Shown here: positions 11,040 to 34,147 of the stretch, one piece after another
How positions within the stretch are numbered: position 1 is the stretch's first letter
Layout: each line of letters opens with the position of its first letter
Origin: Toxorhynchites rutilus septentrionalis
Taxonomy: Eukaryota > Arthropoda > Insecta > Diptera > Culicidae
Assembly (NCBI RefSeq): GCF_029784135.1
Contig: NC_073745.1
Location: 161,461,335-161,525,334 of the forward strand
Reading direction: 5' to 3'
DNA: 64,000 bases
Program-made: the position numbers and the translations under genes
The notes under the pieces: generated by a model
Database searches by the model: none
Told to the model about the DNA's origin: nothing
Seen by the model: the letters and a program-made list of their open reading frames with translations, nothing else

Positions 11040-11228
11040 ATTAAACCTTCCAAAAAAGAGTTTAGGAAATACAGTTCAATGCTTTCTAAAACATTATCCA
11101 AAATAATAATAAAACACAAATTGATTTTTTCATAATTTGTTTGTCAGGATATGATGAGTATGTGAATTTGGCAGTTGTTCTGAGCTTATTGATTTTCATC
11201 AATTCTTAAATTGCTTCTAGATTGAAAG

Positions 11229-11459
11229 TACAGTAATTTACACTTATCTCGACATTTAGCTAATTGGACGGACCTGTAATGTGAAATATTTAGTTGGACA
11301 TTTTTGTAAACATAGAGTTCGGGGTCCAAAATATGACCCCACATTGAAAGTCGACACTGTACCGCTGTCATCGCAAATGTTCAATTACAGGTTAAAGTTA
11401 CCTCCAATCCGATACTGAGTGGTGGTAATGCGACGTGCCATTGAATGTAATTTACTGTA
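11229..11459. repeat. MITE nested in family I (copy 2)
   Basis: TIRs TACAGTAATTTACA / TGTAATTTACTGTA as in the other copies. The interior with GTTGGACATTT and GACCCCACATTG is conserved. Confidence 0.7.
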
Positions 11460-11614
11460 AAATATGTCACAAGCTGGATGGGAAGAAATTTTCCAACTGT
11501 GAAAGCTGTGGCGAGTGGCAAATGCAATCGCTAAACAGAAAGGTTTAGCCGAACAAGATGGGGATATCGAGTGATAACAAAACAATAAACTCTTTAGATT
11601 GAAGATAATTTTGT

Positions 11615-11630
11615 GATCCTGAAAAGGACC
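11615..11630 (-). terminator. Minus-strand histone-like stem-loop (copy 2)
   Basis: On the minus strand this reads GGTCCTTTTCAGGATC, a histone-type hairpin with one G-T pair and the TTTC loop. Equivalent sequences occur at 19614, 23064, 30064 and 53322. No coding sequence is seen upstream on that strand. Confidence 0.45.
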
Positions 11631-11937
11631 CTTTTTAGCCTGCATGTGAATCCAACGAGCGAACAAATCGTAATGAATGTATTTTTTTTTTTTTTTTTAC
11701 AACTTAAATGCATTTTTATTCAGATGTTTTTCTATTTGAATACATATTTTACAGTTCAAGTGACACAGTCTAGGCTTTACATCTTTGGTTCAGCTTTTGG
11801 ATTTAAAATCATACTGTTGAGCAAAAGTTCCTTATTTTTAATTTGACAGTTGTTCACCATTTTAATGGTATTGTTTGAAATTAAATTTGAAAGAGACTAC
11901 TTATAAACTACTAACTAACTAACTAATAACCAACTAA

Positions 11938-14511
11938 CTAATCTACTATATACAAATTTTTTATCAGGTCAAATTCAGAGGATCTAGATTTCTTAACAAA
12001 TTTAGCTTTTGTTTCATACATAATTGCATCTAGTTTTTGGATATTAGCCTCTTGGTGTAGATCCGAGATCCTTGTGTCAAAAGGACGATCAAGAATCATC
12101 CTCAATGCACGATTTTGCGCCACTTGGAGTTTGTTCCTGTGAGTCTGAGCACATGACCCTCACACCACAATTGCATAAAGGATGGCAGGAGCTATGATTT
12201 GATTGTAGACGGCCAGTTTGTTCACCTTTGAGAGACGGGATCGTCGACAGATCAGAGGGTACAGAGATCGAACCAAAGCGGAACACCTATTCAAATTCTT
12301 CTCCACGTGCTGACGGAAGAGGAGTTTCTGATCTATCACTAGCCCCAAATATGTTACTTCAGCGGACCACTCAACCCTTGTGCCATTCATCACCACAACG
12401 CAAGATGGAGGAGGTTTGAGTTTGGGAGACTGCCTGTGCAGGAACATGATTGTTTGGGTTTTGGAGGCATTGATTTTAATTTTCCATATGTTAGCATATT
12501 CAACAAAGGCGTCAAGGCATCGTTGAAGCCTGTTTGTAATTTCACGAGGCATCCTCCCCTTGACGGCAATTGCGGTGTCATCTGCGAACAGAAAGGACGC
12601 GCAGCCATCTCCCAGGGGAGGAGTGTCAGAGGTGTAAAGGCTGTACAGCAAAGGGCCCAGCAGACTTCCCTGCGGGACCCCTGCCTGGATGGAAAATGTG
12701 TTTGACAAACAGCCATTCAACGATACCCTGAACGACCTTTGCTGAAGGTAACACCGGATGATTTTCACGAGATAAATTGGAATGTTAAAGGAACAGAGCT
12801 TATATACAAGCCCGTCATGCCAGACACAGTCGAAAGCCTTTTCGACATCCAACAGTGCCAAGGCTGTGGACTTGGATACAGCCCTGTTCCTTTGGATGGT
12901 GTTCATCACTCTCACTAGTTGGTGGATAGTCGAATGCCCCCGTCTAAACCCAAACTGTTCAGGCAGGAGGATGTTGTTGACCTCAACAAATTTTTGCAAT
13001 CGGAATAAAATGATTTTTTCAAAAAGTTTGCCCAGCGCTGAAAGGAGGCTGATAGGTCTGTAGCTTGAAGGTAGAGTTGGATCCTTCCCGGGTTTGCGGA
13101 TCGGCACGATCTTCGCTTCTTTCCAGATGCTTGGATAATAGTGCAATTCCAAGCATCGATTGAAGATGTTGCTGAGCAGCGAGTAGACTTTGGGAGTGAG
13201 CCTTTTCAGGATAAGGTTGAAGATTCCATCAAACCCGGGAGCCTTCATATTCTTAGTGGCCTTCAGCGCTGAGCCTGCTGTTCGAGCGGACTAGCCATAT
13301 GCGAGCCAAGCAAATGCGACGATGCAATGTGATTGCCTATCGCATTCGCTTTCTCAATAGGCGCAACGAGGAGACTATCGCCGACCTTGAGAGGAGGAAC
13401 TGGTTTCGGATGGTTTTTCAGCACTTTGGCAACCTTCCAAAATGGTCTGGAGCGATCATCCAAGTTTTGTACGGTGCGCCCGAAGCTGTTGTTTCGAAGA
13501 GAGACCATCCTGGAAGCAATCTGCCTGTTCAGATCGGCCATCTCTTCCTTTCTGCCGAGATCCCCGGTCCTCTGAAACTGGCGTCTACGCACATTTCGCA
13601 AGCGGATCAATAGTTGAGTGTGAGAGTCAATAGCAACGAACTTACCCCTCACAGGAACACGCCGCACACACGCCACATCAGCCACGGAGATGGCGTATTG
13701 AAGTCCCTCTAATGCTTGGTCGATGTCCTCCACTGAATGCAGCAGCGTGTTCTCCTCGAGGTGATGGTTCACCATCCTTCCAAACGCCAGCCAGTTGACG
13801 TGATGGTAATCCTTTCGAAGGTAGATGGCTGGAACAATGTTGACCCCTACTTCAGCAACCACCGGAAGGTGATCGGAGCTGAGATCGTTTAGCGCCACCG
13901 GCTTGGTCAGCATGATGTTTGAAAGGAAGATGTCCAAAGTCGATGGATTTCCCGCAGGTGAGGTGAAGGTCGGCTCGTCCGAGAACTGTACCGCATACTG
14001 CCCATGTTGCGCGTGGTCGAAGAGAAGCCGCCCGTTTTGATTTTGTCGGTAGTTCCGCCAATCCTCATGGCGGGCGTTGAGATCACCCCCAACAACAAAG
14101 CGAGAAGAGGTGCGAGTGATGGCAGTCAAGTCATTTTGGAACTGACGCGCCATCCTGTTGCTGTTCGGACACTGATGAGGACAGTACACGGCAATGAAAT
14201 GGATGTTGCCGTTTGTCAATGCGACCTCCACACTAATCGCCTCGATGACCGATGTGCGAACGTGCGGAAGTATGTTGAGCCTCAGGCCTTTCCGTACGAT
14301 GACCGCAACACCGCCCCCCCCTAGAGCTGGTGCGATCAAGCCGGATGATGTTGTGATCCGGTAGCCAGAAACTGTCGCCGGATTTTAGGTGGGTCTCTGA
14401 GAGCAGACCCACGTCGATGCTGTGTCTGCCGACAAAATCGGCAAACTCGATGGCTTTTGCTCTTATCGAGCAAGCGTTCCAAGTGGCAATTTTCAGAGAC
14501 CTAAGAGCCAT
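11938..14511 (-). pseudogene. Jockey-clade ORF2: endonuclease-reverse transcriptase, broken
   Basis: The ATG at 14511 (MALRSLKIATWN) overlaps the ORF1 stop by 11 nt, as is common in jockey-type elements. The APE-type endonuclease motifs are present: ATWNACS, LLSETHL, GGDLNARH, SSDHLPVV. The RT follows with motif A (LLDVEKAFD), motif B (AGVPQGSLLGPLLYSLY) and the catalytic FADD (SFLFADDTAIA). Lesions: a 1-nt indel in a C run at 14314-14321, a frameshift near 13265 between linker and RT, and an in-frame TGA near 12150 where the family has tryptophan (A-I-V-V-stop-G). The C-terminal region runs to 11938. There is no RNase H domain, consistent with jockey clade. Confidence 0.9.
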
Positions 14512-15760
14512 ATTCAATGATAAACTTACCAAGCACATTCATCTGCTCGGGCTTGTTGCGGCACGCGCGGAGGGCGGTCGTCATCTTGTCAAAAATTTCC
14601 AGTAGCTCCGTCGGGGTGAACTTTTCGGAGTTGGTTTCAGTTTGTGGTGGGCGCCAAAATCCAGGGGGGGTGGGAGGCGAGCGCTGTCCGGCGGGCTCGC
14701 CGGTGGTACGTTGAGGAGGGGCAGCTCGATCCCGAGCGCTTGGATGAGTTGTTTGCTGAGTGGGGCGAAGCGGAGGAAAATCTTCTGCTCTAAACGACTT
14801 CTCCTTCTTCCGCCCCGGTTGATTGTTGATAGACGCCTGCTTGCGGATATGTTTGAAATTTTCGCGTTTCGGGCATTGCCGGTCCGAACCCTGATGAGCG
14901 CCGCCACAGTTGATACATTTGTACTCCACTTTACCAGCTTTGTCCACTGGGCAGTCACCAGTGGCGTGGTCCTTAGCACACGCGCTGCAGCGAGGTTTGA
15001 TGTTACAGTTGCGGGTGCCATGTCCAAAATTCAGGCACCGCTGGCACTGGGTGACGTCGCGACGGCCACCACGGTAAGGTTCCCATCGGATTCTCAGGGA
15101 AAAAAGAGAGCGGATCGCTTTGAGGGCATTCAGCGTCACCGTCCCTTTCTGAAAGTGCACCAGAAACAGACAGTCCGGGTACATCTTCTCGTTTTCACCT
15201 CTACGTTTCATCCGGTAAATGGCGGTTACGACTAGCTTCAACCGATCCTTGAGTTCAGCGGTGATCGTCTTCGGGTCGTAGTTAGACAGGCCGCGAATAA
15301 CAGCCTTGAAGGGTTTGTCCCCCGGGATGTCGTGGGTGAAAAACTCAATATTGGCATTCTTCAAAAACGCCACGACCAGATCAAATTCATTCCGCGTACG
15401 GAGGAAAACTTTAGTGCCGATGCCACATAGCTTATATTCTGCTTTAACGCCCATCGATGCAAATTCACTGATGAGTTTGTCGAGAGCGACCGCCTTCACC
15501 ACCAGCGGAGGGAGTATGATTTTGGTTGCTGCCTCAGTAGCAGAGTTTGCATTTTCAACCGTCGCGCCGAAGTCGCCTACTTCGGTGCCGTTCGATGCGG
15601 TGTCACAGTCGCGAAGGCTCGACTCTGTGCGGGCACTTTTCACCGCGCCACCATTGCGTGCATCATTAGATGACGCTTGCCTTGAAAATTTATTGCCCCT
15701 GGCAATGCGATCATTTTTTGCAGGGCTCGAGCCTGCCTTCCTCTTCTTCTTGCTCATCAC
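14501..15760 (-). CDS. Jockey-clade ORF1: gag-like nucleocapsid protein, 419 aa
   Basis: An uninterrupted 419-codon frame. The N-terminal ~90 residues are basic and Ser/Asn-rich (SKKKRKAGSSPAK). A central RRM-like region follows, then three Cys/His zinc knuckles: CQRCLNFGHGTRNC (CX2CX4HX4C), CSACAKDHATGDC and CINCGGAHQ..C. A proline-rich C-terminus follows. Such proteins bind the element's RNA and act as nucleic acid chaperones. It is the only full-length open frame of this element; expression is unknown. Confidence 0.85.
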   Translation of the reverse strand: MMSKKKRKAGSSPAKNDRIARGNKFSRQASSNDARNGGAVKSARTESSLRDCDTASNGTEVGDFGATVENANSATEAATKIILPPLVVKAVALDKLISEFASMGVKAEYKLCGIGTKVFLRTRNEFDLVVAFLKNANIEFFTHDIPGDKPFKAVIRGLSNYDPKTITAELKDRLKLVVTAIYRMKRRGENEKMYPDCLFLVHFQKGTVTLNALKAIRSLFSLRIRWEPYRGGRRDVTQCQRCLNFGHGTRNCNIKPRCSACAKDHATGDCPVDKAGKVEYKCINCGGAHQGSDRQCPKRENFKHIRKQASINNQPGRKKEKSFRAEDFPPLRPTQQTTHPSARDRAAPPQRTTGEPAGQRSPPTPPGFWRPPQTETNSEKFTPTELLEIFDKMTTALRACRNKPEQMNVLGKFIIEYGS

Positions 15761-16055
15761 ACACTACGCGAAGCGTCAAATTTATGACGCGGTAAGAAGA
15801 AAACACACGATACGAATAACGCGAAAAACGAAAAGAAAAAACCACACGACGATATCCAAGTTGGATTACCACTGGTGGGGTCCAATCTTAGATCGAAGCG
15901 CAGCGAAAGCAAAGTGAACTGGACTACTCAACAGTCCGATGCCGAATTTGTTTGTCATCGCTCCCTTTTAACGCCCATTCGTTCGTCTCGTTGGACTCGC
16001 CCCTCTGGCTGAGTCTGCCGATTTGTCTCTATCCTGTGAGTGTGTACCGCTAGAG

Positions 16056-16062
16056 TATAAAA
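16056..16062 (+). promoter_or_regulatory. TATA box of H2A type B promoter (copy 2)
   Basis: TATAAAA in the conserved GCTAGAG-TATAAAA-CACGCGG block, about 90 nt before the H2A segment. Confidence 0.6.
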
Positions 16063-16147
16063 CACGCGGACCCCAAAAAATATCTTATTTTCTTTCAAAC
16101 CGTAAACCCGTGTGGTTGTACGGCATCGGTATCGTGGACGTAACAAA

Positions 16148-16362
16148 GGAGGACAAGTTAAGGGAAAGGCAAAGTCTCACTCGAACCGTGCAGGTCTCCA
16201 GTTCCCTGTTGGTCGCATTCACTGATTGCTCCGCAAAGGTAACTAGGCCGAACGGATTGGTGCCGGAGCACCAGTATACCTAACAGCGATTATAGAGTTT
16301 CGGCCGTCGGAGTGCTCGAGTTGGCTTGCAAAGCTGCTCACGACAATCAGAAAACCCGCATC
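16148..16362 (+). pseudogene. Histone H2A pseudogene, type B (copy 2)
   Basis: Starting at GGAGGACAAG the phase reads [20 protein letters not shown], then a stop, LLRKGN, a stop (TAG in place of Tyr), AERIGAGAPVYL and ELACKAAHDNQKTRI. The initiator ATG has mutated. The sequence after 16362 departs from H2A. The terminal stem-loop of this copy has lost its 5' arm (ACAAC-TTTTCAGAACC near 16592). It is separated from the type A unit by the LINE insertion. Confidence 0.85.
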
Positions 16363-17004
16363 AAGAACAGAGCAGCTTCGGTTCGGCGCTCATCAAGGCA
16401 ACAATTAGTTTCAGTGAGTGGCAAAGTGTTTCTCCGGCACGTCGCATTAAATGTAATTTACTGAACAACATGTCACAAGCTGGATGGGAAGAAATTTTCC
16501 AACTGTGAAAGCTGTGGCGAGTGGCAAACGCAATATCTAAACAGGAAAGTTTAACCGAACAAGATGGGAATATCGAGTGAAAACAAAAACACAACTTTTC
16601 AGAACCCCCAACATGTTCATAAAGAGTAAACAGTAAACTAATCCATTTTTCAGGTAGATAGGTAGGTATTCACGTAGGAGAAGAAAATAAAACAATATAT
16701 TTAAAATATATATTTAGCAAAAGCTGTCCCCTTTGTATAGTCCTACGTCACTCCGGTTATGTCCCCGATATTACCCACCCGTCTTTTTTTTTCATCAAAT
16801 ATGATCGTCCATCACCTCCTGAGAGAATCTGGATAAATTTATTTGTTTCATGTGAGAAAGGTGTTTTCTGACTTTAAGGGGATGAATCAAAAATCATATT
16901 CCGCTTTTATATTCAAAAAACAAAAATATTTTTTTGACTCGATTATATACAGTGAAAAGAAATCGAGTATAACGAGTCCGCCCTGTATAATGAAAAAAAT
17001 CTAA

Positions 17005-17734: not shown

Positions 17735-18330
17735 TACTGTTCTGAATCATATTTCGGACGCTTAAGGCATATGATGCAGAAAACAGGTTTAAACTTTATG
17801 CACAGGTATTGTTTGGTTGATGTTTTTAATAAATTAGTTCAATATGCTTCTATGCTTTCTACTTTGGTACCTATTGACGTAGGACTACGTCTAACCGGAA
17901 GATATAGGGGGTGAAATGGAAATCTAGGCACTGAACAAGTAGGAAAAAATGCAAGATTTGGAACGCTTATAACTCGAGCATTTCTCAATAGATCGCAAAG
18001 GTTTTTGCATCAATTGATAGGAAATATATCTACGCATCTATCATAACGAATAACATTTCATTTTTCTTGAGATAAATAATTGAATAATTGTGAAATATCA
18101 AGCATTGTCAAAATGCACTATGTGCCCATTTTTGATTGGTCTATTTTGTGCTCCTCAAATCGTACCGACCAAAACGAGCAACTAGAGCAGCAGCGAAATA
18201 GAATGAAGCACGATTGGAAAGGAAAAAGAAAAAAATGAACGAAACATTGGTCGCAGTTTCACACATGCGTAATTCTCGAGCCAGCCAGCCAGCTTAAAAA
18301 TCCCCGCTCCGCTACCGTAACGATCATTCT

Positions 18331-18538
18331 TTGTGTGGACACCGACTGGACAACGTCGTTGCTGGACGAGCTGGACGACGAGGGATCGAGTGCCTTTCTC
18401 AAGGCAAGAGGGCGGAGGTGGTAGCGCTGGAGTAGAGTAATAGAGTAGAGTAGAGTTTTCAAAGGGCCTTTCTCAAGGCTAGAGACGAATGAACTGCAAA
18501 AGTTTAAAGTCTCTATAATTCAAGACCATCCTTCCTTC
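18331..18538 (+). mobile_element. SINE with (CTTC)n tail, 15-bp target duplication (copy 3)
   Basis: CGTAACGATCATTCT is repeated at 18316-18330 and 18539-18553. The 208-bp insert starts TTGTGTGGACACCGACTGG and ends in CCATCCTTCCTTC. Copies 2, 4 and 7 lack it and have one CGTAACGATCATTCT. Its 3' half contains the GACGAATGAACTGCAAAAGT block also found in the 60-bp retroposons. Promoter boxes are not certain. Confidence 0.8.
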
Positions 18539-18616
18539 CGTAACGATCATTCTCATTCAAACCGTACACCATATCGGTTCGCATCACAACACATCAACAA
18601 ACCAACCCAAGCAGCC

Positions 18617-18827
18617 ATGTCTGGACATGGTAAAGGAGGAAAAGTGAAGGGAAAGGCAAAATCCCGCTCGAACCGTGTTGATCTGGACTTCCCCGCAAGG
18701 GTAGCTAGGCCGAGCGCGTTAGTACCAGTGCACCAGTCCACCTAGCCGGCGTTATATAGTTTCGGCCGCCGAAGTGATCGAGTTAACTGGCAAAGCTGCT
18801 CGCGACGATAAGAAAACCCGCATTCGG
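18617..18827 (+). pseudogene. Histone H2A pseudogene, type A (copy 3)
   Basis: ATG 18617, stop 18743-18745, the same 42-codon frame and the same 25-nt deletion as all type A units. H2A similarity resumes in the original phase to KKTRI at 18827. The SINE lies between its promoter and 5' leader, so the upstream TTAAAAA element is now about 310 nt from the ATG. Confidence 0.85.
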
Positions 18828-19055
18828 AACAGACCACATTCGGTTCGGTGGACATCAAGACAACAACAGGCAGTTGTGGCGAGTGGCAAACGCAATCGCA
18901 AAACGGCAGCTGGTAGCAGAAGAAAAAAGTTTGTTCTTTTTACAATCTGCTTTGGTGGCAAATCCAGAACAAGGCGGCATCGAGGGCGTTCGAAATGGTT
19001 TTTTTCAAAACCACGAGTACTAAGTTTTCTAAATTGGAACCATTCCATAAAACAA

Positions 19056-19070
19056 GGCGCTTTTCAGGGA
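19056..19070 (+). terminator. Damaged histone 3' stem-loop (copy 3, A)
   Basis: GGCGCTTTTCAGGGA: the last two bases of the 3' arm are deleted, so only four stem bases can pair. Confidence 0.5.
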
Positions 19071-19259
19071 TTTAAACCTTCCAAAAAAGAGTTTAGGAAA
19101 TACAGTTCAATGCATTCTAAAACAATATCCAAAATAATAATAAAACACAAATTGATTTTTTCATAATTTGTTTGCCAGGATATGATGAGTATGTGAATTT
19201 GGCAGTTGTTTTGAGCTTATTGATTTTCACCAATTCTTAAATTGCTTCTAGATTGAAAG

Positions 19260-19490
19260 TACAGTAATTTACACTTATCTCGACATTTAGCTAATTGGAC
19301 GGACCTGTAATGCGACATATTTAGTTGGACATTTTTGTAAACATAGAGTTCGGGGTCCAAATTATGACCCCACATTGAAAGTCGACACTGTACCACTGTC
19401 ATCGCAAATGTTCAATTACAGGTTAAAATAACCTCCAATCCGATACTGAGTGGTGGTAATGCGACGTGCCATTGAATGCAATTTACTGTA
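19260..19490. repeat. MITE nested in family I (copy 3)
   Basis: TACAGTAATTTACA at the left, TGCAATTTACTGTA at the right (one change). Same position as in the other copies. Confidence 0.7.
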
Positions 19491-19613
19491 AAATATGTCA
19501 CAAGCTGTGGCGAGTGGCAAATGCAATCGCTAAACAGAATGGTTTAGCCGAACAAGATAAGGATATCGAGTGATAAAAAAACAATAAACTCTTTAGATTG
19601 AAGATAATTTTGT

Positions 19614-19629
19614 GATCCTGAAAAGGACC
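19614..19629 (-). terminator. Minus-strand histone-like stem-loop (copy 3)
   Basis: GGTCCTTTTCAGGATC on the minus strand, about 160 nt upstream of the plus-strand TATA box. Conserved position among copies 2-5 and 7. Confidence 0.45.
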
Positions 19630-19789
19630 CTTTTTAGCCTGCATGTGAATCCAACGAGCGAACAAATCGTAATGAATGTATTTTTTTGCCATCGCTCCCT
19701 TTTAACGCTCATTCGTTCGTCTCGTTGGACTCGCCCCTCTGGCTGAGTCTGCCGATTTGTCTCTATCCTGTGAGTGTGTACCGCTAGAG

Positions 19790-19796
19790 TATAAAA
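19790..19796 (+). promoter_or_regulatory. TATA box of H2A type B promoter (copy 3)
   Basis: TATAAAA within the conserved GCTAGAG-TATAAAA-CACGCGG block. Confidence 0.6.
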
Positions 19797-19882
19797 CACG
19801 CGGACCCCAAAAAAATATCTTATTTTCTTTCAAACCGTAAACCCGTGATGTTGTACGGCATCGGCATCGTGGACGTAACAAA

Positions 19883-20097
19883 GGAGGACAAGTTAAGAGA
19901 AAGGCAAAGTCTCACTCGAACCGTGCAGGTCTCCAGTTCCCTGTTGGTCGCATTCACTGATTGCTCCGCAAGGGTAACTAGGCCGAACGGATTGGTGCCG
20001 GAGCACCAGTATACCTAACAGCGATTATAGAGTTTCGGCCGTCGGAGTGCTCGAGTTGGCTTGCAAAGCTGCTCACGACAATCAGAAAACCCGCATC
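19883..20097 (+). pseudogene. Histone H2A pseudogene, type B (copy 3)
   Basis: The phase reads [36 protein letters not shown], then after a short deletion ELACKAAHDNQKTRI. The ATG is lost. It is followed by MITE-derived right-end sequence (TGTAATTTACTGAA) and the perfect stem-loop at 20337. Confidence 0.85.
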
Positions 20098-20336
20098 AAG
20101 AACAGAGCAGCTTCGGTTCGGCGCTCATCAAGGCAACAAATAGTTTCAGTGAGTGGCAAAGTGTTTCTCCGGCACGTCACATTGAATGTAATTTACTGAA
20201 CAACATGTCACAGGCTGGATGGGAAGACATTTTCCAACTGTGAAAGCTGTGGCGAGTGGCAAACGCAATAGCTAAACAGGAAGGTTTAACCGAACAAGAT
20301 GGGCATATCGAGTGATAACAAAAACACAACACCAAA

Positions 20337-20352
20337 GGTTCTTTTCAGAACC
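20337..20352 (+). terminator. Perfect histone 3' stem-loop (copy 3, B)
   Basis: GGTTCTTTTCAGAACC, perfect stem, preceded by ACCAAA. Confidence 0.8.
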
Positions 20353-21035
20353 ATCAACATATTCATAAAGAGTAAACAGTAAACTAATCCATTTTTCAGG
20401 TAGATAGGTAGGTATTCACGTAGGAGAAGAAAATAAAACAATATATTTAAAATATATATTTAACAAAAGCTGTCCCCTTTGTATAGTCCTACGTCACTCC
20501 GGTTATGTCCCCGACATTACCCACCCGTCTTTTTTTTGATTGAAAACATTAAAAAAATCATCGAATAAAATGCTTTTCAAATGAAGCGAATACAAATCAA
20601 ATTTCGGACAGATTGAATTCAAATTTCGGACACCATTTTTTGTAATTTTCTGGACGAAAATTACATTACACTTAATTATATTTTATAGTCAACTGCGAAA
20701 CACTTACCCAGCAATCACAGTAAACTGTTAACGATGATGAGAAATGATGAAACACGGGAGAAATTTAAATATTTTTCAAAAGGGTAAATTCTACGTGTTC
20801 ACGCTAGGAAACGTCAAACACAAACGATAATTAGTAGTGTTGTAAGATTTCTGCCGATAATGTTGTAATTCAAATGTAGTTCTCATGTGAAATGATAGTG
20901 AAACCAAGGGATTACACTAAAGAAGCAATTGTGATATTAATTTTATAGTTATATCATCAGTGCATTAAGTATTTCAAGATGTTAGAATAAAGTGTCCGAA
21001 ATATGATATTGTCTGATATATGATTCAGAACGGTA

Positions 21036-21499
21036 TATGTCAGCATCTTGGGGTTCTTTTACAACAAATTACTGTTGAAGATAATCGTCGAAAGCTATTA
21101 GCACTTTTCGTTCACAAGCAAAATTTTTGTGCGGGGGATAGGGACCGCACAAATAAACGCATAAAAAATCGTGCAAAACTTCACCAGTAGCTTTAAAAAA
21201 TCGTGTTCGGTACATAATTAAAAAAATTTTTTTTTGTGCGGTAGATAGGGACCGCATAAAAAAAGGTTCTCCCAACAAAATAACTCAAATCCACGCCACG
21301 TTTACCGTTCGATTCCCTTTTATTTCCCTGCTTTGCGTTGCGAAAGTTTGCCTTTTCGGTTACGTGAGGCAGTGTTGTGCTTTTAGTTGCATGTCGAAAC
21401 TTGTTTCTAACAGCAACAAGTCATGTGTAACTTAGAGCATTTGATGGAAGGATGGAAATGATTAGAGAAGTGGACAATTTAGACGCAAGTATGCTTTTT
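21036..21499. repeat. Left part of AT-rich repeat with GTGCGG..GACCGCA motifs
   Basis: TTTGTGCGGGGGATAGGGACC at about 21125-21150 and TTGTGCGGTAGATAGGGACC at about 21233 are twice-repeated motifs typical of terminal regions of a DNA repeat. Matching ATCGCA-CAAAAAA arrays lie at 24055-24120, on the far side of family I copy 4. The ends are not precisely defined. Confidence 0.45.
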
Positions 21500-21917
21500 G
21501 ACGTAGGACTACGTCTAACCGGAAGATATAGGGGGTGAAATGGAAATCTAGGCACTGAACAAGTAGGAAAAAATGCAAGATTTGGAACGCTTATAACTCG
21601 AGCATTTCTCAATAGATCGCAAAGGTTTTTGCATCAATTGATAGGAAATATATCTACGCATCTATCATAACGAATAACATTTCATTTTTCTTGAGATAAA
21701 TAATTGAATAATTGTGAAATATCAAGCATTGTCAAAATGCACTATGTGCCCATTTTTGATTGGTCCATTTTGTGCTCCTCAAATCGTACCGACCAAAACG
21801 GGAAACCAGAGCAGCAGCGAAATAGAATGAAGCACGATTGGAAAGGAAAAAGAAAAAAATGAACGAAACATTGGTCGCAGTCTCACACATGCGTAACTCT
21901 CGAGCCAGCCAGTCAGC

Positions 21918-21924
21918 TTAAAAA
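21918..21924 (+). promoter_or_regulatory. TATA-like element of H2A type A promoter (copy 4)
   Basis: TTAAAAA about 100 nt before the ATG, in AGTCAGC-TTAAAAA-TCCCCGCTCCGC. It is followed by a CATTC start-like motif and a purine-poor leader. This block is nearly identical in all seven copies. Confidence 0.5.
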
Positions 21925-22017
21925 TCCCCGCTCCGCTGCCGTAACGATCATTCTCATTCAAACCGTACACCACATCGGTTCGCATCACAACACATCAACA
22001 AACCAACCCAAGCAGCC

Positions 22018-22228
22018 ATGTCTGGACATGGTAAAGGAGGAAAAGTGAAGGGAAAGGCAAAATCCCGCTCGAACCGTATTGATCTGGAGTTCCCCGCAAG
22101 GGTAGCTAGGCCGAGAGCGTTAGTACCAGTGCACCAGTCCACCTAGCCGGCGTTATATAGTTTCGGTCGCCGAAGTGATCGAGTTAGCTGGCAAAGCTGC
22201 TCGCGACGATAAGAAAACCCGCATTCCG
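22018..22228 (+). pseudogene. Histone H2A pseudogene, type A (copy 4)
   Basis: ATG 22018, stop 22144-22146. It encodes the H2A N-tail (R3 to H) to the FP codons, then frameshifted codons ending HQST. In the ancestral phase the histone-fold segment IELAGKAARDDKKTRI follows to 22228. The C-terminal third is absent. Confidence 0.85.
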
Positions 22229-22460
22229 AACAGAACACATTCGGTTCGGTGGACATCAAGACAACAGGCAGTTGCAGCGAGTGGCGAGTGGCAAACGCAA
22301 TCGCAAAACAGCATCAGGTAGCAGAAGAAAAAAGTTTGTTCTTTATACAAACTGCTTTGGTGGCAAATCCAGAACAAGGCGGCATCGAGGGCGTTCGAAA
22401 TGGTTTTTTTCAAAACCACGAGTACTAAGTTTTCTAAATTGGAACCATTCCATAAAACAA

Positions 22461-22476
22461 GGCGCTTTTCAGGGCC
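22461..22476 (+). terminator. Histone-type 3' stem-loop (copy 4, A)
   Basis: GGCGCTTTTCAGGGCC, one stem mismatch, preceded by TAAAACAA. Confidence 0.75.
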
Positions 22477-22692
22477 ATTAAACCTTCCAAAAAAGAGGTT
22501 GGGAAATACAGTTCAATGCTTTCTAAAACATTATCCAAAATAATAATAAAACACAAATTGATTTTTTCATAATTTGTTTGCCAGGATCTGATGAGTATGT
22601 GAATTTGGCAGTTGTTCTAAGCTTATTGATAGTTGGGGACTTTCCTGATTATTCAATTTTTACCAATTCTAAAATTGTTTCCAGATTGAAAG

Positions 22693-22910
22693 TACAGTAA
22701 TTTACAATTAGTTCGATATTTACCTAATTGGACGGACATGTAATGCGACTTATTTAGTTGGACATTTTTGTAAACATAGAGATCCAAACCCCACATTGAA
22801 AGTCGACACCGTACCACTGTCATCGCAAATGTTCAATTACAGGTTAAAATCGCCTCCAATGCGACACTGAGTGGCGCTTCGGCACGTCGCATTGAATGTA
22901 ATTTACTGTA
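22693..22910. repeat. MITE nested in family I (copy 4)
   Basis: TIRs TACAGTAATTTACA and TGTAATTTACTGTA. Confidence 0.7.
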
Positions 22911-23063
22911 CAACATGTCACAAAGCTGGATGGGAAGAAATTTTCCAACTGTGAAAGCTGTGGCGAGTGGCAACAAATCGCTAAACAGGAAGGATTAGCC
23001 GAACAAGATAGAATATCGAGTGATAACAAAACAATAAACTCTTTAGATTAAATATAATTTTGT

Positions 23064-23079
23064 GATCCTGAAAAGGACC
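23064..23079 (-). terminator. Minus-strand histone-like stem-loop (copy 4)
   Basis: GGTCCTTTTCAGGATC on the minus strand, as in the other copies. Confidence 0.45.
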
Positions 23080-23239
23080 CTTTTAAGCCTGCATGTGAAT
23101 CCAACGAGCGAACAAATCGTAATGAATGTATTTTTTTGCCATCGCTCCCTTTTAACGCTCATTCGTTCGTCTCGTTGGACTCGCCCCTCTGGCTGAGTCT
23201 GCCGATTTGTCTCTATCCTGTGAGTGTGTACCGCTAGAG

Positions 23240-23246
23240 TATAAAA
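23240..23246 (+). promoter_or_regulatory. TATA box of H2A type B promoter (copy 4)
   Basis: TATAAAA in the conserved block; here followed by CAAGCGG instead of CACGCGG. Confidence 0.6.
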
Positions 23247-23332
23247 CAAGCGGACCCCAAAAAAATATCTTATTTTCTTTCAAACCGTAAACCCGTATGG
23301 TTGTACGGCATCGGCATCGTGGACGTAACAAA

Positions 23333-23547
23333 GGAGGACAAGTTAAGGGAAAGGCAAAGTCTCACTCGAACCGTGCAGGTCTCCAGTTCCCTGTTGGTCA
23401 GATTTACTGATTGCTCCGCAAGGGTAACTAGGTCGAACGGATTGGTCCCGGAGCACCAGTATACCTAACAGCGATTATAGAGCTTCGGCCGTCGGAGTGC
23501 TCGAGTTGGCTTGCAAAGCTGCTCACGACAATCAGAAAACCCGCATC
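23333..23547 (+). pseudogene. Histone H2A pseudogene, type B (copy 4)
   Basis: The phase reads [18 protein letters not shown], then (I/D)LL RKGN-stop-, ERIG.GAPVYL and ELACKAAHDNQKTRI. The arginine and tyrosine nonsense changes seen in the other type B units recur, so they predate the amplification. The stem-loop follows at 23787. Confidence 0.85.
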
Positions 23548-23786
23548 AAGAACAGAGCAGCTTCGGTTCGGCGCTCATCAAGGAAACAATTAGTTTCAGT
23601 GAGTGGCAAAGTGTTTCTCCGGCACGTCGCATTAAATGTAATTTACTGAACAACATGTCACAAGCTGGATGGGAAGAAATTTTCCAACTGTGAAAGCTGT
23701 GGCGAGTGGCAAACGCAATAGCTAAACAGGAAGGTTTAGCCGAACAAGATGGGAATATCGAGTGATAACAAAAACACAACACTAAA

Positions 23787-23802
23787 GGTTCTTTTCAGAA
23801 CC
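23787..23802 (+). terminator. Perfect histone 3' stem-loop (copy 4, B)
   Basis: GGTTCTTTTCAGAACC, perfect stem with TTTC loop. Confidence 0.8.
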
Positions 23803-23979
23803 ATCAACATATTCATAAAGAGTAAACAGTAAACTAATTAATTTTTCAGGTAGATAGGTAGGTATTCACGTAGGAGAAGAAAATAAAACAATATATTTAA
23901 AATATATATTTAACAAAAGCTGTCCCCTTTGTATAGTCCTACGTCACTCCGGTTATGTCCCCGACATTACCCACCCGTC

Positions 23980-24875
23980 TTTTTTTGCACTGAAATGCAA
24001 ATGCAAAAAAAAAGTATATGGACGAGAAATTCGTCAAATATGCTTCTTTTCATATAACACACAAAAAAATCGCATAAAAAACCGCACAAAAAAATCGCAC
24101 AAAAAAAAACGCGCAAAAACAGGTTTTACTGTATTTGGTTTCGTCTTCACTCTACGATTGAACTGCGCTGCCAACTCGCACCAGAATTTCTCATTCCCAC
24201 TCAGATGCAAACTATAAACACTTTTGCTCCTATATTCCGCTTAAGGTTGGATCGAACCTTACAACATGCAACAGTATAGTTTTCCTACTGGGATTTGAAA
24301 GCATACTTACATGAAATATACTTTGTATCTAAATAAATGCAGCGTATATCTTTATTTCAAAATTCTGGATACTCTTCCATATCCGCACTAGTACAAAATT
24401 TTCCGGTATGCACATTCTTTGTCGTACCATACTTTGATACAGAGCGCTTCTTTTACTTGCATCGAGTTGTGTGTGTATATGTGAATGAAATCAGCATAAG
24501 GCATGAATGATATACGCTCGTTGTGTAGTGCTTGCTAGCACGCTCGCAACTGTGGTTTCATTCCATTCCATGAAAATGACGTTTCCGAAAAAAAAAATGT
24601 TAATGCCAAATGTCTTAAAATTGCATGAACCATCGAGATCTACTGTCATCTCGAACATTTTTTGGTAGGGTAACGTTTTGAAATTTTAATGTCGTTTTTC
24701 CCGTACATTCATTGACACCCTAATACTTATTCCGAGAAAAACAATCCACTCCCGCTCGACGTCCTTCGGCAACGATGTTGCTTCAATGACAACCATACGA
24801 GAAGTGGTGTGATTTCAAATCGCGGATGGCTTAATTATACGAAATAAGATGAAAATGGACAGAGACCAATGTGTT
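23980..24875. other. Unassigned, repeat-derived interval
   Basis: 24055-24130 holds ATCGCACAAAAAA arrays that pair with 21120-21260. 24600-24720 resembles the foldback at 45410-45680 (AATGTCTT.AAATTGCATGA, ATCTACTGTCATCTCGA). 24755-24785 resembles the SINE head (GGCAACGATGTTG). No coding frame is supported. Confidence 0.45.
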
Positions 24876-27832: not shown

Positions 27833-28277
27833 TTAAAAAATATGTTTATTGCTTATTGCTTTCAGGTCATTGGGAAGCATGTTGAACTTCAAAGGACCGT
27901 AACTCTTTATGCGTGTAATCCCCAATTTCGTATAAGCTCTGCTTCTCATTAGGTCATTTGCATTTCTCGTATTCGAAAGGTTTATTCGAGTAGGGAATGT
28001 GATATTATGGTGAAAATTACGGTTATGTAAAGTGTTGTGAACAAACATAATACTTTGGATATCACACAGGCCTGAAATTGGAATAATTCTATTTTGTATG
28101 GTGGTGTAAAGCGCAATTGTCGGATATAAGTGAGGAAGGTTGAAAACTACTTTCACACATCTGTTTTGCAGCGCTTGATTTTTTTTATTTGGCAGCATGA
28201 CCCCAGACTACAATTGACTACAAGTATTGGAGAATGGAATGGATGCATGCGAAATAAAACTTTAACAATGCTTTTTT
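27833..28277 (-). pseudogene. CR1/L2-like LINE: C-terminal part of reverse transcriptase
   Basis: The minus-strand frame reads KALLKFYFACIHSILQYL, a stop, then WGHA, a stretch with LQNRCVKVVFNLPHLYPT, and ends KHIF. This is the thumb/C-terminal pattern (LYxxxIxSIxxYG..VWG..QNRxxK.IFN) of CR1/L2-group RTs. The upstream part of the same gene lies at 30985-31490, beyond family I copy 5, and the frame joins through an AAAAAA run (P-K-K | A-L-L-K). Confidence 0.75.
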
Positions 28278-28732
28278 GACGTAGGACTACGTCTAACCGG
28301 AAGATATAGGGGGTGAAATGGAAATCTAGGTACTGAACAAGTAGGAAAAAATGCAAGATTTGGAACGCTTATAACTCGAGCATTTCTCAATAGATCGCAA
28401 AGGTTTTTGCATCAATTGATAGGAAATATATCTACGCATCTATCATAACGAATAATATTTCATTTTTCTTGAGATAAATAATTGAATAATTGTGAAATAT
28501 CAAGCATTGTCAAAATGCACTATGTGCCCATTTTTGATTGGTCCATTTTGTGCTCCTGAAATCGTACCGACCAAAACGGGCAACCAGAGCAGCAGCGAAA
28601 TAGAATGAAGCACGATTGGAAAGGAAAAAGAAAAAAATGAACGAAACATTGGTCGCAGTCTCACACATGCGTAATTCTCGAGCCAGCCAGTCAGCTTAAA
28701 AATCCCCGCTCCGCTGCCGTAACGATCATTCT

Positions 28733-28931
28733 TTGTGTGGACACCGACTGGACAACATCGTTGCTGGACGAGCTGGACGGCGAGGGATCGAGTGCCTTTC
28801 TCAAGGCAAGGAGGTGGAGGTGGTAGCGCTGGAGTAAATAGAGTAGAGTTTTCAAAGGGCCTTTCTCAAGGCTAGAGACGAATGAACCGCAAAAGTTTAA
28901 AGTCTCTATAATACAAGACCTTCCTTCCTTC
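28733..28931 (+). mobile_element. SINE with (CCTT)n tail, 15-bp target duplication (copy 5)
   Basis: CGTAACGATCATTCT at 28718-28732 and 28932-28946: the same site and same target duplication as in copies 3 and 6. Length 199 bp, tail CCTTCCTTC. Confidence 0.8.
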
Positions 28932-29009
28932 CGTAACGATCATTCTCATTCAAACCGTACACCACATCGGTTCGCATCACAACACATCAACAAACCAACC
29001 CAAGCAGCC

Positions 29010-29218
29010 ATGTCTGGACATGGTAAAGGAGGAAAAGTGAAGGGAAAGGCAAAATCCCGCTCGAACCGTGTTGATCTGGAGTTCCCCGTAAGGGTAGCTA
29101 GGCCGAGCGCGTTAGTACCAGTGCACCAGTCCACCTAACCGGCGCTATATAGTTTCGGCCGCCGAAGTGATCGAGTAAGCTGGCAAAGCTGCTCGCGACG
29201 ATAAGAAAAACCGCATTC
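29010..29218 (+). pseudogene. Histone H2A pseudogene, type A (copy 5)
   Basis: ATG 29010; the 42-codon frame ends in TAA (29136-29138) where the other copies have TAG. A further stop lies in the E-L-A-G segment (GAGTAAGCTGGC). H2A similarity ends at 29218. Confidence 0.85.
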
Positions 29219-29456
29219 AGAACAGAACACATTCAGTTCGGTGGACATCAAGACAACAACAGGCAGTTGCAGCGAGTGGCGAATGGCAAACGCAATCGCA
29301 AAACGGCAGCAGGTAGCAGAAGAACAAAGTTTGTTCTTTATACAAACTGCTTTGGTGGCAAATCCAGAACAAGGCGGCATCGAGGGCGTTCGAAATGGTT
29401 TTTTTTCAAAACCACGAGTACTAAGTTTTCTAAGTTTGAACCATTCCATAAAACAA

Positions 29457-29472
29457 GGCGCTTTTCAGGGCC
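29457..29472 (+). terminator. Histone-type 3' stem-loop (copy 5, A)
   Basis: GGCGCTTTTCAGGGCC, one stem mismatch. Confidence 0.75.
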
Positions 29473-29698
29473 ATTAAACCTTCCAAAAAATAGTTTAGGA
29501 AATACAGTTCAATGCTTTCTAAAACATTATCCAAAATAATAATAAAACAAAAATTGATTTTTTCATAATTTGTTTGCCAGGATCTCATGAGTATGTGAAT
29601 TTGGCAGTTGTTCTGAGCTTATTGATAGTTGGGGACTTTCCTGATTATTCAATTTTCACCAATTCTTAAATTGTTTCCAGATTGAAAGTACAGTAATT

Positions 29699-29912
29699 TA
29701 CAATTAGTTCGACATTTAGCTAATTGGACGGACATGTAATGCGACTTATTTAGTTGGACATTTTCGTAAACATAGAGATCCAAATTATGACCCCACATTG
29801 AAAGTCGACACTGTACCACTGTCATCGCAAATGTTCAATTACAGGTTAAAATCGCCTCCAATGCGACACTGAGTGGCGCTTCGGCACGTCGCATTGAATG
29901 TAATTTACTGTA
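29699..29912. repeat. MITE nested in family I (copy 5)
   Basis: TIRs TACAGTAATTTACA / TGTAATTTACTGTA. Confidence 0.7.
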
Positions 29913-30063
29913 CAACATGTCACAAAGCGGGATGGGAAGAAATTTTCCAACTGTGGAAGCTGTGGCGAGCGGCAAATGCAAATGCAGAAAGGTTTAGCCG
30001 AACAAGGTGGGGATATCGAGTAATAACAAAACAATATACTCTTTAGATTGAAAATAATTTTGT

Positions 30064-30079
30064 GATCCTGAAAAGGACC
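30064..30079 (-). terminator. Minus-strand histone-like stem-loop (copy 5)
   Basis: GGTCCTTTTCAGGATC on the minus strand. Confidence 0.45.
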
Positions 30080-30239
30080 CTTTTTAGCCTGCATGTGAAT
30101 CCAACGAGCGAACAAATCGTAATGAATGTATTTTTTTGCCATCGCTCCCTTTTAACGCTCATTCGTTCGTCTCGTTGGACTCGCCCCTCTGGCTGAGTCT
30201 GCCGATTTGTCTCTATTCTGTGAGTGTGTACCGCTAGAG

Positions 30240-30246
30240 TATAAAA
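30240..30246 (+). promoter_or_regulatory. TATA box of H2A type B promoter (copy 5)
   Basis: TATAAAA in the conserved GCTAGAG-TATAAAA-CACGCGG block. Confidence 0.6.
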
Positions 30247-30332
30247 CACGCGGACCCCAAAAAAATATCTTATTTTCTTTCAAACCGTAAACCCGTGTGG
30301 TTGTACGGCATCGGCATCGTGGACGTAACAAA

Positions 30333-30547
30333 GGAGGACAAGTTAAGGGAAAGGCAAAGTCCCACTCGAACCGTGCAAGTGTGCAGTTCCCTGTTGGTCG
30401 CATTCACTGATTGCTCCGCAAGGGTAACTAGGCCGAACGGATTGGTCCCGGAGCACCAGTATACCTAACAGAGATTATAGAGCTTCGGCCGTCGGAGTGC
30501 TCGAGTTGGCTTGCAAAGCTGCTCATGACAATCAGAAAACCCGCATC
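30333..30547 (+). pseudogene. Histone H2A pseudogene, type B (copy 5)
   Basis: Same architecture as the other type B units: [27 protein letters not shown].GAPVYL, then ELACKAAHDNQKTRI. It has small private changes (for example CCCACTCGAACCGTGCAAG). It is followed by the perfect stem-loop at 30787-30802. Confidence 0.85.
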
Positions 30548-30786
30548 AAGAACAGAGCAGCTTCGGTTCGGCGCTCATCAAGGCAACAATTAGTTTCAGT
30601 GAGTGGCAAAGTGTTTCTCCGGCACGTCGCATTGAATGTAATTTACTGAACAATATGTCACAAGCTGGATGGGAAGAAATTTTCCAACTGTGAAAGCTGT
30701 GGCGAGTGGCAAACGCAATAGCTAAACAGGAAGGTTTAACCGAACAAGATGGGAATATCGAGTGATAACAAAAACACAACACCAAA

Positions 30787-30802
30787 GGTTCTTTTCAGAA
30801 CC
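30787..30802 (+). terminator. Perfect histone 3' stem-loop (copy 5, B)
   Basis: GGTTCTTTTCAGAACC preceded by ACCAAA. Confidence 0.8.
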
Positions 30803-30984
30803 ATCAACATATTCATAAAGAGTAAACAGTAAACTAATCCATTTTACAGGTAGATAGGTAGGTATTCACGTAGGAGAAGAAAATAAAGCAATATATTTAA
30901 AATATATATTTAACAAAAGCTGTCCCCTTTGTATAGTCCTACGTCACTCCGGTTATGTCCCCGACATTACCCACCCGTCTTTTT

Positions 30985-31490
30985 TGGTATGAAACAGTGT
31001 ACTCTTCTCATGAGACCACATAAACTTGCAGCTTCACTCGAGACATGTTTAAAGTGAGTATCCCAGGAAAGGGACAATCCTAAGTATTTGACACAGGAGA
31101 CTTTTTCAATCGACAGAATTCCCACACATGGATCACGGTGGATATACTTTGTTTTAGTAAGATTCATGGTTAAATGATTGCCGCTGAAATATTCTATGAG
31201 TTTCGCTAGATCTGATTCCAGGTCCGCTACAATGGTTTGAATATCAGAACGCGGATAGAATAACGCCGAATCGTCTGCAAAAAGTCTTGCGTTAAATTGC
31301 CAAGATCATTAATAAAAATCAAGAAGAGTAGAGGACCTATGTTGCTTCCTTGAGGAACTCCTATATCAATCAGACGCAGACTACTACGAACACCGTTAAT
31401 TATTACGAATTATTTACGATTGGACAGGTAATTTTTTATCAGATCGTTGGCAACTCCTCTTACCCCATATCGATCAATTTTTGACGTAGG
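30985..31490 (-). pseudogene. CR1/L2-like LINE: central RT part (motifs B, C and thumb)
   Basis: In order on the minus strand: YGVRGVANDLIKNYLSN (31485-31430), a nonsense codon, [20 protein letters not shown] (motif B), FADDSALFY (motif C with the catalytic DD), LAKLIEYFSGNHLTMNLTKT and VSCVKYLGLSLSWDTHF. Small indels disturb the frame around 31290-31310. It continues 5' at 34540, across family III-a. Confidence 0.8.
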
Positions 31491-33005
31491 ATTACGTCTT
31501 TCGGGAACATATTGGGGTACAAATTGAAAATCGAAAATCGAGCGCACCGTTAAAATTGTCCAATTTCAAACGCTTATTGCTCAGTCATTTCATGATGGAT
31601 TGATGAGATTTTTGCGTCAATCAATTTCGACACTCCATAACAATTTTTTACATTGAATGAAATAATATATGTCATGAAATTAACTATCGAACAATTGAAA
31701 AATCTCAACCCCTATCCTAACAGAAATACCCACTTCTGATAGGTCGAAATTGACGACATATGCGGCGGGTCCCAAACAGAGACATCAAATCAAGCTGCCT
31801 AGGGGAAATTGGCATTACAGATACATGAAAGTAGGGGGAGATTTTTTTTCCACCGACATGTATACCCTAACAGAGATTTCAATCCATGGTGTCTGGGAGA
31901 AATCAGCATGTAAATACACTCGATAGTTTAACTAACGACGCGCACAAATGTATAGTGCTCATTGTAACTAGCGTGGGCATTGCTGATTGCATACGTGCTG
32001 GCGAATAAGTTGGGAGCGATGAACAAGTGTTTTTTCGTTCCAATAAGAATCTTTCGATTGAAGAATGATGTTTCAATGAACTGAATAGAACTTATGCTTG
32101 ATATAATTAATAAATAAAATTTAATAAAATTTAAATTTGGAACTTTTATGATGGTTTCTTCGTAAAACTTTTAGCACAACTGTAAGTGTAATGGTAGCTA
32201 TTGTGTTAAAATGACTTGAAATATGAAACGATTTTTTTTCTCCCATGGAAAGTTCATGCGACGAGCAAAATTGGAAAAATGAAGAAATATTCGAAAAATA
32301 TGCTCTACATACGTATTGGGTGCTGTTAGCCCAATTGAAATTCGCATTGAGGCATGTAGCATCGTGTTCCGTTGGGTTTAAAGTGAAAAGAAAATGGGTT
32401 GAATAAATACTCAGAAAATAAAAAGTTATGAATGAAATTACTTTTCCATTCAAATATATTTTCTCTATACTAAGGTAACACTTTTTTTCTGGTGAGAAAA
32501 ATTGGGTTCGATAATGATAATTATCTTATATTGCTTTGATGAGCTTTTTTGACGTAGGACTACGTCTAACCGGAAGATATAGGGGGTGAAATGGAAATCT
32601 AGGCACTGAACAAGAAGGAAAAATGCAAGATTTGGAACGCTTATAACCCGAGCATTTCTCAATAGATCGCAAAGGTTTTTGCATCAATTGATAGGAAATA
32701 TATCTACGCATCTATCATTACGAATAACATTTCATTTTTCTTGAGATAAATAATTGAATAATTGTGAAATATCAAGCATTGTCAAAATGCACTATGTGCC
32801 CATTTTTGATTGGTCCATTTTGTGCTCCTCAAATCGTACCGACCAAAACGGGCAACCAGCGGCAGCAGCGAAATAGAATGAAGCACGATAGGAAAGGAAG
32901 AAGAGAAAAATGAACGAAACATTGGTCGCAGTCTCACACATGCGTAATTCTCGAGCCAGCCAGTCAGCTTAAAAATTCCCGCTCCGCTGCCGTAACGATC
33001 ATTCT

Positions 33006-33225
33006 TTGTGTGGACACCGACTGGACAAAATCGTTGCTGGACGAGCTGGACGGCGAGGGATCGAGTGCCTTTCTCAAGGCAAGAGGGCGGAGGTGGTAGC
33101 GCTGGAGTAGAGTAATAGAGTAGAGTAGAGTTTTCAAAGGGCCTTCCTCAAGGCTAGAGACGAATAAACTGCAAAAGTTTAAAGTCTCTATAATACAAGA
33201 CCTTCCTTCCTTCCTTCCTTCCTTC
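33006..33225 (+). mobile_element. SINE with expanded (CCTT)n tail, 15-bp target duplication (copy 6)
   Basis: CGTAACGATCATTCT at 32991-33005 and 33226-33240. The tail has about five CTTC/CCTT units, longer than in copies 3 and 5, as expected of a microsatellite tail. Confidence 0.8.
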
Positions 33226-33303
33226 CGTAACGATCATTCTCATTCAAACCGTACACCACATCGGTTCGCATCACAACACATCAACAAACCAACACAAGCA
33301 GCC

Positions 33304-33512
33304 ATGTCTGGACATGGTAAAGGAGGAAAAGTGAAGGGAAAGGCAAAATCCCGCTCGAACCGTGTTGATCTGAAGTTCCCCGCAAGGGTAGCTAGGCAGA
33401 GCGCGTTAGTACCAGTGCACCAGTCCACCTAGCCGGCGTTATATAGTTTCGGCCGCCGAAGTGATCGAGTTGGCTGGCAAAGCTGCTCGCGACGATAAGA
33501 AAACCCGCATTC
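33304..33512 (+). pseudogene. Histone H2A pseudogene, type A (copy 6)
   Basis: ATG 33304, stop 33430-33432. The same truncated 42-codon N-tail frame and 25-nt deletion; original phase to KKTRI at 33512. Confidence 0.85.
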
Positions 33513-33748
33513 GGAACAGAACACATTCGGTTCGGTGGACATCAAGACAACAGGCAGTTGCAGCGAGTGGCGAGTGGCAAACGCAATCGCAAAACGGCAT
33601 CAAGTAGCACAAGAAAAAAGTTTGTTCTTTATACAAACTGCTTTGGTGGCAAATCCAGAACAAGGCGGCATCGAGGGCGTTCGAAATGGTTTTTTTTTCA
33701 AAACCACGAGTACTAAGTTTTCTAAATTGGAACCATTCCATAAAACAA

Positions 33749-33764
33749 GGCGCTTTTCAGTGCC
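33749..33764 (+). terminator. Histone-type 3' stem-loop (copy 6, A)
   Basis: GGCGCTTTTCAGTGCC: the usual G-G mismatch is here a G-T pair, so the stem can close fully. Confidence 0.75.
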
Positions 33765-33922
33765 ATTAAACCTTCCAAAAAAGAGTTTACGAAATACAGT
33801 TCAATGCTTTCTAAAACAATATCCAAAATAATAATAAAACACAAATTGATTTTTTGTGAATTTGGCAGTTGTTCTGAGCTTATTGATTTTCACCAATTCT
33901 TAAATTGCTTCTAGATTGAAAG

Positions 33923-34147
33923 TACAGTAATTTACACTTATCTCGACATTTAGCTAATTGGACGGACCTGTAATGCGACATATTTAGTTGGACATTTTTG
34001 TAAACATTGAGTTCGGGGTCCAAATTATGACCCCACATTGAAAGTTGACACTGTACCACTGTCATCACAAATGTTCAATTACAGGTTAAAATTACCTCCA
34101 AACTGAGTGGTGATAATGCGACGTGCCATTGAATGTAATTTACTGTA
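33923..34147. repeat. MITE nested in family I (copy 6)
   Basis: TIRs TACAGTAATTTACA / TGTAATTTACTGTA. Confidence 0.7.

Follow-up and report, generated by a model that had tools for sequence, protein, structure and literature searches.

A stretch of 64,000 nucleotides from the mosquito Toxorhynchites rutilus septentrionalis (assembly GCF_029784135.1, contig NC_073745.1, positions 161,461,335 to 161,525,334 of the forward strand; hereafter the window) contains a repeat, present in seven copies, that appears to carry parts of a replication-dependent histone gene. This raises the questions of whether the resemblance to histone H2A is genuine, which class of mobile element transports it, and by which route the histone DNA entered that element.

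The element, its copies and its abundance

The reference copy (copy 4) is a non-coding, H2A-carrying HINE of 2.49 kb located at 21496-23986, slightly wider than the extent of 21500-23979 that an earlier note on this DNA had placed correctly but drawn too narrowly. The left boundary (at about 21495/6) recurred in all genomic copies fetched by similarity, and the right boundary (at about 23985/6) in all except L024, L025 and L026, which stop or break earlier within the stretch read. The left end has the sequence TTTTGACGTAGGACTACGTCTAACCGG and the right end GTCCTACGTCACTCCGGTTATGTCCCCGACATTACCCACCCGTCTTTTTTT; the inverted partner of the 5' repeat is separated from the 3' end by approximately 33 bases and a run of 3 to 7 Ts. 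The terminal hairpins are not strong when compared with shuffled sequences (z -1.8, -1.4, and -1.0 in a longer stretch), and the fold of the 3' palindrome was equalled by 16 of 200 shuffles of a 52-base stretch and by 33 of 200 shuffles of a 62-base stretch.

All seven copies in the window have the same orientation (Table 1). They had been reported to share the same termini, which is correct for the right end in all seven and for the left end in six, the 5'-truncated copy at 2687 being the exception. At least two forms of the HINE can be distinguished, because a segment of approximately 195 bp is present in copies 3, 5 and 6 and absent from copies 1, 2, 4 and 7, with a 19-bp overlap at the junction. 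Copy 2 is broken by a related element at 8994 and by a non-LTR retrotransposon, and picks up again at 15946. This retrotransposon (12160-15757, minus strand) encodes a reverse transcriptase (PF00078, 1.2e-37), and its upstream frame shows CCHC-like motifs by eye, with no Pfam match. A second non-LTR retrotransposon is located at 59513-63609 (minus strand), with reverse transcriptase and RNase H domains in the frame 59513-60967. Related left ends belonging to sister families (TTGACGTGGGACTACGTC) were found at 656 (minus strand), 7170 and 8994, and are approximately 79-88% similar to the HINE where aligned.

Table 1. Position of the HINE copies and of the features of the reference copy (coordinates of the window).
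Feature	Position	Strand	Remarks
Copy 1, 5'-truncated	2687..6394	+	H2A units at 2849, 4225 and 5028; stem-loop at 6191
Copy 2, interrupted	8805..16790	+	H2A at 10581 and 16136
Copy 3, longer form	17874..20536	+	H2A at 18617 and 19871; stem-loop at 20332
Copy 4, reference copy of the H2A-carrying HINE	21496..23986	+	Left boundary in 20/20 and right boundary in 17/20 genomic copies
5' terminus TT and palindromic subterminal repeat GACGTAGGACTACGTC	21498..21515	+	Hairpin fold -4.4 kcal/mol, equalled by 13/200 shuffles
Frameshifted pseudogene of H2A, unit A (approximately codons 1-100)	22018..22320	+	tblastn 2.3e-15
Histone-type 3' stem-loop of unit A, GGCGCTTTTCAGGGCC	22461..22476	+	5 of 6 pairs; AAAGAG downstream; under the Rfam gathering score
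TATA-like box TATAAAA of unit B	23240..23246	+	Sequence
H2A unit B pseudogene	23321..23630	+	tblastn 1.3e-23
Histone 3' stem-loop of unit B and downstream AAAGAG	23782..23826	+	Rfam RF00032 39.6 bits (gathering 34)
Inverted counterpart of the 5' repeat, sharing 13 bp (TGACGTAGGACTA)	23934..23946	-	Sequence
3' palindrome GGTTATGTC-CCC-GACATTACC	23951..23971	+	Predicted fold -4.0 kcal/mol
Copy 5, longer form, 2712 bp	28274..30985	+	H2A at 29010 and 30321; stem-loop at 30782
Copy 6, longer form, B deleted	32547..34237	+	Unit A only (33304)
Copy 7	51758..54224	+	H2A at 52280 and 53578; stem-loop at 54039

A genome-wide count of copies had been proposed in the earlier note. A search of the source genome (902.6 Mb) for the exact 36-bp left end returned 3,517 + 3,585 = 7,102 dispersed occurrences, and none for a reversed control pattern. 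The H2A-A fragment was found in 18 of 20 places sampled by this exact left end (20 of the first 100 places listed, approximately every fifth, all on contig C1 between 1.4 and 18.4 Mb, 900 bases each); of the other two, L068 matches the long form in its first 135 bases only, and L056 has no match over 60 bases. On each of the three large contigs (C1, C2 and C3), scored copies were found whose flanks are unrelated and whose common ends are sharp. Based on density, about half of one exact left end would be expected per 64 kb, and the window, with six, therefore represents a local cluster. Divergence was calculated from 14 complete or almost complete copies, 4 of the 7 in the window and 10 from the 20 loci fetched, the remainder being omitted as incomplete or nested. 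These copies differ by 0.84-2.76% from their majority sequence and by 0.08-4.05% from one another (mean 2.67%), and this low divergence suggests that the HINE spread fairly recently.

H2A pseudogenes and histone 3' ends

The H2A identity, originally read by eye, was borne out by formal alignment: tblastn with an H2A protein gave E values of 1e-12 to 1e-26 in the window and located 14 units, distributed over copies 1 to 7 as 3, 2, 2, 2, 2, 1 and 2, with at least two units in six of the seven, as had been claimed, copy 6 being without B. The majority sequence of the 14 copies aligned with H2A at E 3.7e-29; the best of 50 shuffles in two-base blocks, compared with any of five histones, reached E 0.004. 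Weak matches to H1 (E 0.015 and 0.022) and of H4 to the H2A N-terminus (E 0.02-0.03) were discounted.

The units span approximately codons 1-100 of the 124 of H2A, the last fifth or so being unrecognisable. In a frameshift-tolerant alignment of the majority sequence, unit A showed 58 identical codons among 96 aligned with five frameshifts, and unit B 66 among 106 with one frameshift and two stops. Frameshifts and stops are common to the H2A units of the window copies, and the same stops recur in several of these copies, one of them also in the autonomous element described below, which argues that coding capacity had been lost from the cargo by the time the present copies spread. Judged from these lesions, the H2A cargo is already dead prior to the amplification seen here, and the units most likely travel as passengers that make no protein.

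Histone-type stem-loops follow both units. Rfam model RF00032 scored above its gathering threshold after the B unit in five of the seven window copies, and no A-unit stem-loop in the window exceeded that score. In a pattern survey of the window and 20 loci, pairing of the B stem-loop was kept in 26 of 27 instances, and at least five of the six pairs of the A stem-loop in 30 of 32. The motif AAAGAG, which we take to resemble the histone downstream element, occurs at a near-fixed distance 3' of the stem-loops (28 of 32 for A, 26 of 27 for B). The histone downstream element lies beyond the point at which the histone mRNA is cleaved, and the presence of AAAGAG there thus favours capture at the DNA level. 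Promoter-like DNA is found 5' of the H2A coding region, including the TATA-like box TATAAAA of unit B. Between units A and B, an antisense histone-type stem-loop is present (23064-23079, minus strand; about 1576, minus strand, of the majority sequence), as would result from capture of another histone 3' end in the opposite orientation.

Helentron affinity and the autonomous partner

The element had been described as Helitron-like. This remains appropriate for a dispersed, rolling-circle-type family with H2A cargo, but its ends and insertion are those of the Helentron/HINE group and not of a canonical Helitron. According to the available part of the published description (Thomas, Vadnagara and Pritham 2014, PMC4067079), Helentrons and HINEs possess palindromic subterminal inverted repeats of 12-15 bp, spaced from the 5' and 3' ends by about 2-4 nt and 38-60 bp, respectively, and a 3' palindrome of 5-10 bp at about 8-35 bp from the 3' end, and they insert into TT or T-rich sites, with strings of T at their borders. 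The subterminal repeats found here have 13 bp in common, lie 2-4 nt from the 5' end, and have a 3' spacing close to the minimum of the published range. A 3' palindrome was recognised by sequence and predicted fold, the latter unremarkable compared with shuffles. All three nested insertions examined (L013, L024 and L027) start in T-runs, and at the two that are readable on both sides (L013 and L027), the only addition consists of 3-4 Ts. The partner encodes Rep, a PIF1-like helicase and a fused endonuclease, as is expected of the autonomous element behind a HINE. A canonical Helitron, to which the rolling-circle-type enzyme and the 3' hairpin might point, as might Rep loci of another lineage in the same genome, was rejected and is extremely improbable: there is no 5' TC and no 3' CTRR, insertion occurs in T-runs instead of between A and T, and the partner bears an endonuclease. 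From its membership of the Helentron/HINE group, we infer that the H2A HINE would transpose by a rolling-circle mechanism.

Of 1,313 genomic candidates for the Helitron Rep domain, 150 were scored, of which 132 matched, and some of the loci form identical pairs. An autonomous Helentron at C2:6592958-6607842 has left and right ends matching those of the HINE, and its 1674-aa frame, domain-scanned as two overlapping pieces, contains Helitron_like_N (1.3e-22), PIF1 (1.6e-33) and Exo_endo_phos (7.1e-8). Between the left end and the enzyme gene, this element contains tandem repeats of approximately 1.32 kb that include four H2A units. The HINE is approximately 91% identical to it over 2.1 kb comprising the left end and H2A repeats, and 96.8% over 218 bp at the right end. 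Since identity exceeds 95% between HINEs and their partners in Culex, as given in the available part of the same description (PMC4067079), the lower 5' value suggests that the direct partner may be another, closer Helentron. The first 5.68 kb of C2:6592958-6607842 recurs at a second site with 99.5% identity, where a 1674-aa frame is also listed. Protein relatives were found in numerous mosquitoes and also, at 50%, in a mite, Galendromus occidentalis. A separate lineage of Helitron Rep loci (L029-L033) includes a pair (L029 and L030, on C1 and C3) that is 100% identical over 3.35 kb and has an open frame of 1169 aa; this identity suggests that the lineage was likely active recently.

Sister families and origin of the histone cargo

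Two further families possess Rep parts that are approximately 70-74% identical to those of the H2A element in the aligned DNA stretches, and are here called putative Helentrons, an assignment made from the Rep parts alone. The L038 family, which starts with the same 18-bp repeat as the H2A HINE in the one copy read, contains two H3 pseudogenes placed head to head (E 4e-41 and 1e-20), with a stem-loop after each in L041 that was seen by pattern only. Two H3 units in the same orientation are present in L053, so that the H3 pair was found in both copies reached. At the Rfam gathering score, L041, L043 and L046 gave no histone stem-loop, the one match in four sources being in L045. A tandem array of variable length also occurs within the H3-carrying family (L041:2912-3616, L050-L052). 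In the L035-L037 family, codons 80-98 of H4 were found in all three copies examined (E 1.4e-6, 1.5e-6 and 4.6e-5), approximately 3.3 kb upstream of the match to the Rep domain; judging from flanks common to the copies, they would lie inside the element. The 5' end of this family was not found, and a non-systematic inspection recognised no histone promoter in it. Among the predicted proteins of Aedes albopictus, P0142 (LOC115257832) consists of two tandem H2A tails and is numbered next to the Helentron enzyme P0005 (LOC115257831); as a lead only, the adjoining LOC numbers suggest a similar histone load, and thus possibly an H2A-loaded Helentron, in Aedes albopictus.

Very probably, the HINE originated from a histone-capturing Helentron through DNA capture, tandem duplication, decay, deletion and amplification in trans. 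An ancestral Helentron would have picked up genomic histone DNA comprising the promoter, 5' UTR, part of the coding region, 3' stem-loop and downstream element, either by running past its own end or by composite transposition. The captured piece would then have duplicated in tandem and decayed, after which a deletion derivative retaining both ends and two H2A units would have given rise to the HINE. This derivative would be copied in trans by a Helentron enzyme, via a single-stranded rolling-circle intermediate, into T-rich sites, while other Helentron families in the same genome would have taken H3 and H4 pieces separately. The plainest guess for such repeated capture is the abundance of multi-copy histone clusters as a target.

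Other routes were weighed against this scenario. The earlier note had preferred DNA-level capture to retroposition of a histone mRNA, and this is the most likely reading of the promoter-like DNA 5' of the coding region and of AAAGAG past the mRNA cleavage point. Intronless histone pieces filling a mobile element, and the non-LTR retrotransposons present in the window, would suit retroposition; together with these two features, the fact that no poly(A) tract was seen where the stem-loops end makes it very unlikely. A decayed tandem histone locus, or a histone-derived satellite that only looks dispersed, might be imagined from the 1.32-kb tandem repeats inside the autonomous element and from seven copies in one window. 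Such a satellite is ruled out for practical purposes by the 7,102 exact ends genome-wide and by copies with common, sharp termini and unrelated flanks on three large contigs. Neither of the outcomes named in the earlier note as refuting it, a single tandem satellite lacking common termini or an H2A similarity that fails formal alignment, was observed.

As for a role of the cargo, the captured promoters and 3' ends might confer S-phase transcription on the Helentron or HINE, when its replication-dependent copying can be finished, and might for this reason have been kept in several families. Upstream of the Rep gene, histone pieces are present in three families of the same genome and differ between them, TATA-like boxes are present, stem-loops have retained their pairing (26 of 27 instances for B, 30 of 32 for A), and the tandem array is kept at two autonomous loci; moreover, in the Helitron model outlined in the accessible part of a review (PMC5371812), transposition is completed by passive DNA replication. 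These observations are weakened by the distance of about 3.5 kb between the end of the H2A array and the Rep frame in the autonomous element, by the H4 family, which retains only codons 80-98 at about 3.3 kb from its Rep match with no recognised histone promoter, and by the expectation that stem-loops are conserved anyway between copies 1-3% apart. We therefore consider a functional cargo unlikely. The same low probability applies to the broader proposal that replication-dependent histone genes have been taken up again and again by mosquito Helentrons (pieces of H2A, H3 and H4 in Toxorhynchites, others in Culex and perhaps H2A in Aedes albopictus) as a working part that ties Helentron expression to S phase and not as chance freight. 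If this were true, thousands of dispersed histone stem-loops and promoters would be a side effect.

Histone cargo had been regarded as undescribed. This does not hold in general, since histone gene fragments are published for the Culex quinquefasciatus element Helentron-Cq-32A, present in eight copies, where they are given as H4 superfamily (CDD smart00428) and H15 in the part of the paper available (Thomas, Vadnagara and Pritham 2014, PMC4067079). It does hold for the H2A cargo, its architecture and its scale. We take smart00428 to be an H3 domain. Among the papers listed in the literature searches, titles and abstract openings revealed no further report of Helentrons with histone cargo.

Helentron-Cq-32A, as described in the available text (PMC4067079), resembles the present element in being a mosquito Helentron whose histone fragments contain stops, frameshifts and indels. 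It differs from the situation in Toxorhynchites, where H2A units with stem-loops form a tandem array, the exact left end occurs 7,102 times (H2A being present in 18 of 20 places sampled), and H3 and H4 pieces are carried by separate families. With the HINE/DINE-1 (INE-1) elements of mite, Drosophila and Culex, as portrayed in that text (PMC4067079), the element has in common asymmetric palindromic subterminal repeats, a 3' palindrome, T-rich insertion, internal tandem repeats and copying by a Helentron, but here the internal repeats are pieces of histone genes. New, accordingly, are the H2A cargo, its tandem arrangement in an autonomous Helentron, the scale, and the coexistence in one genome of three families with different loads. 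The one published case found (Culex, eight copies) is now extended to a second mosquito, to other histone genes and to thousands of copies, and the question is raised whether histone loci are favoured as capture targets or whether histone regulatory DNA is helpful to the element. Caenorhabditis Helitrons with heat shock elements likewise disperse host regulatory DNA; for these a regulatory function is shown in the portion of the report available (PMC6927752), whereas the Toxorhynchites element is known here from its sequence alone. For annotation of this genome, it should be borne in mind that H2A-like fragments with histone stem-loops number in the thousands and are transposon-borne.
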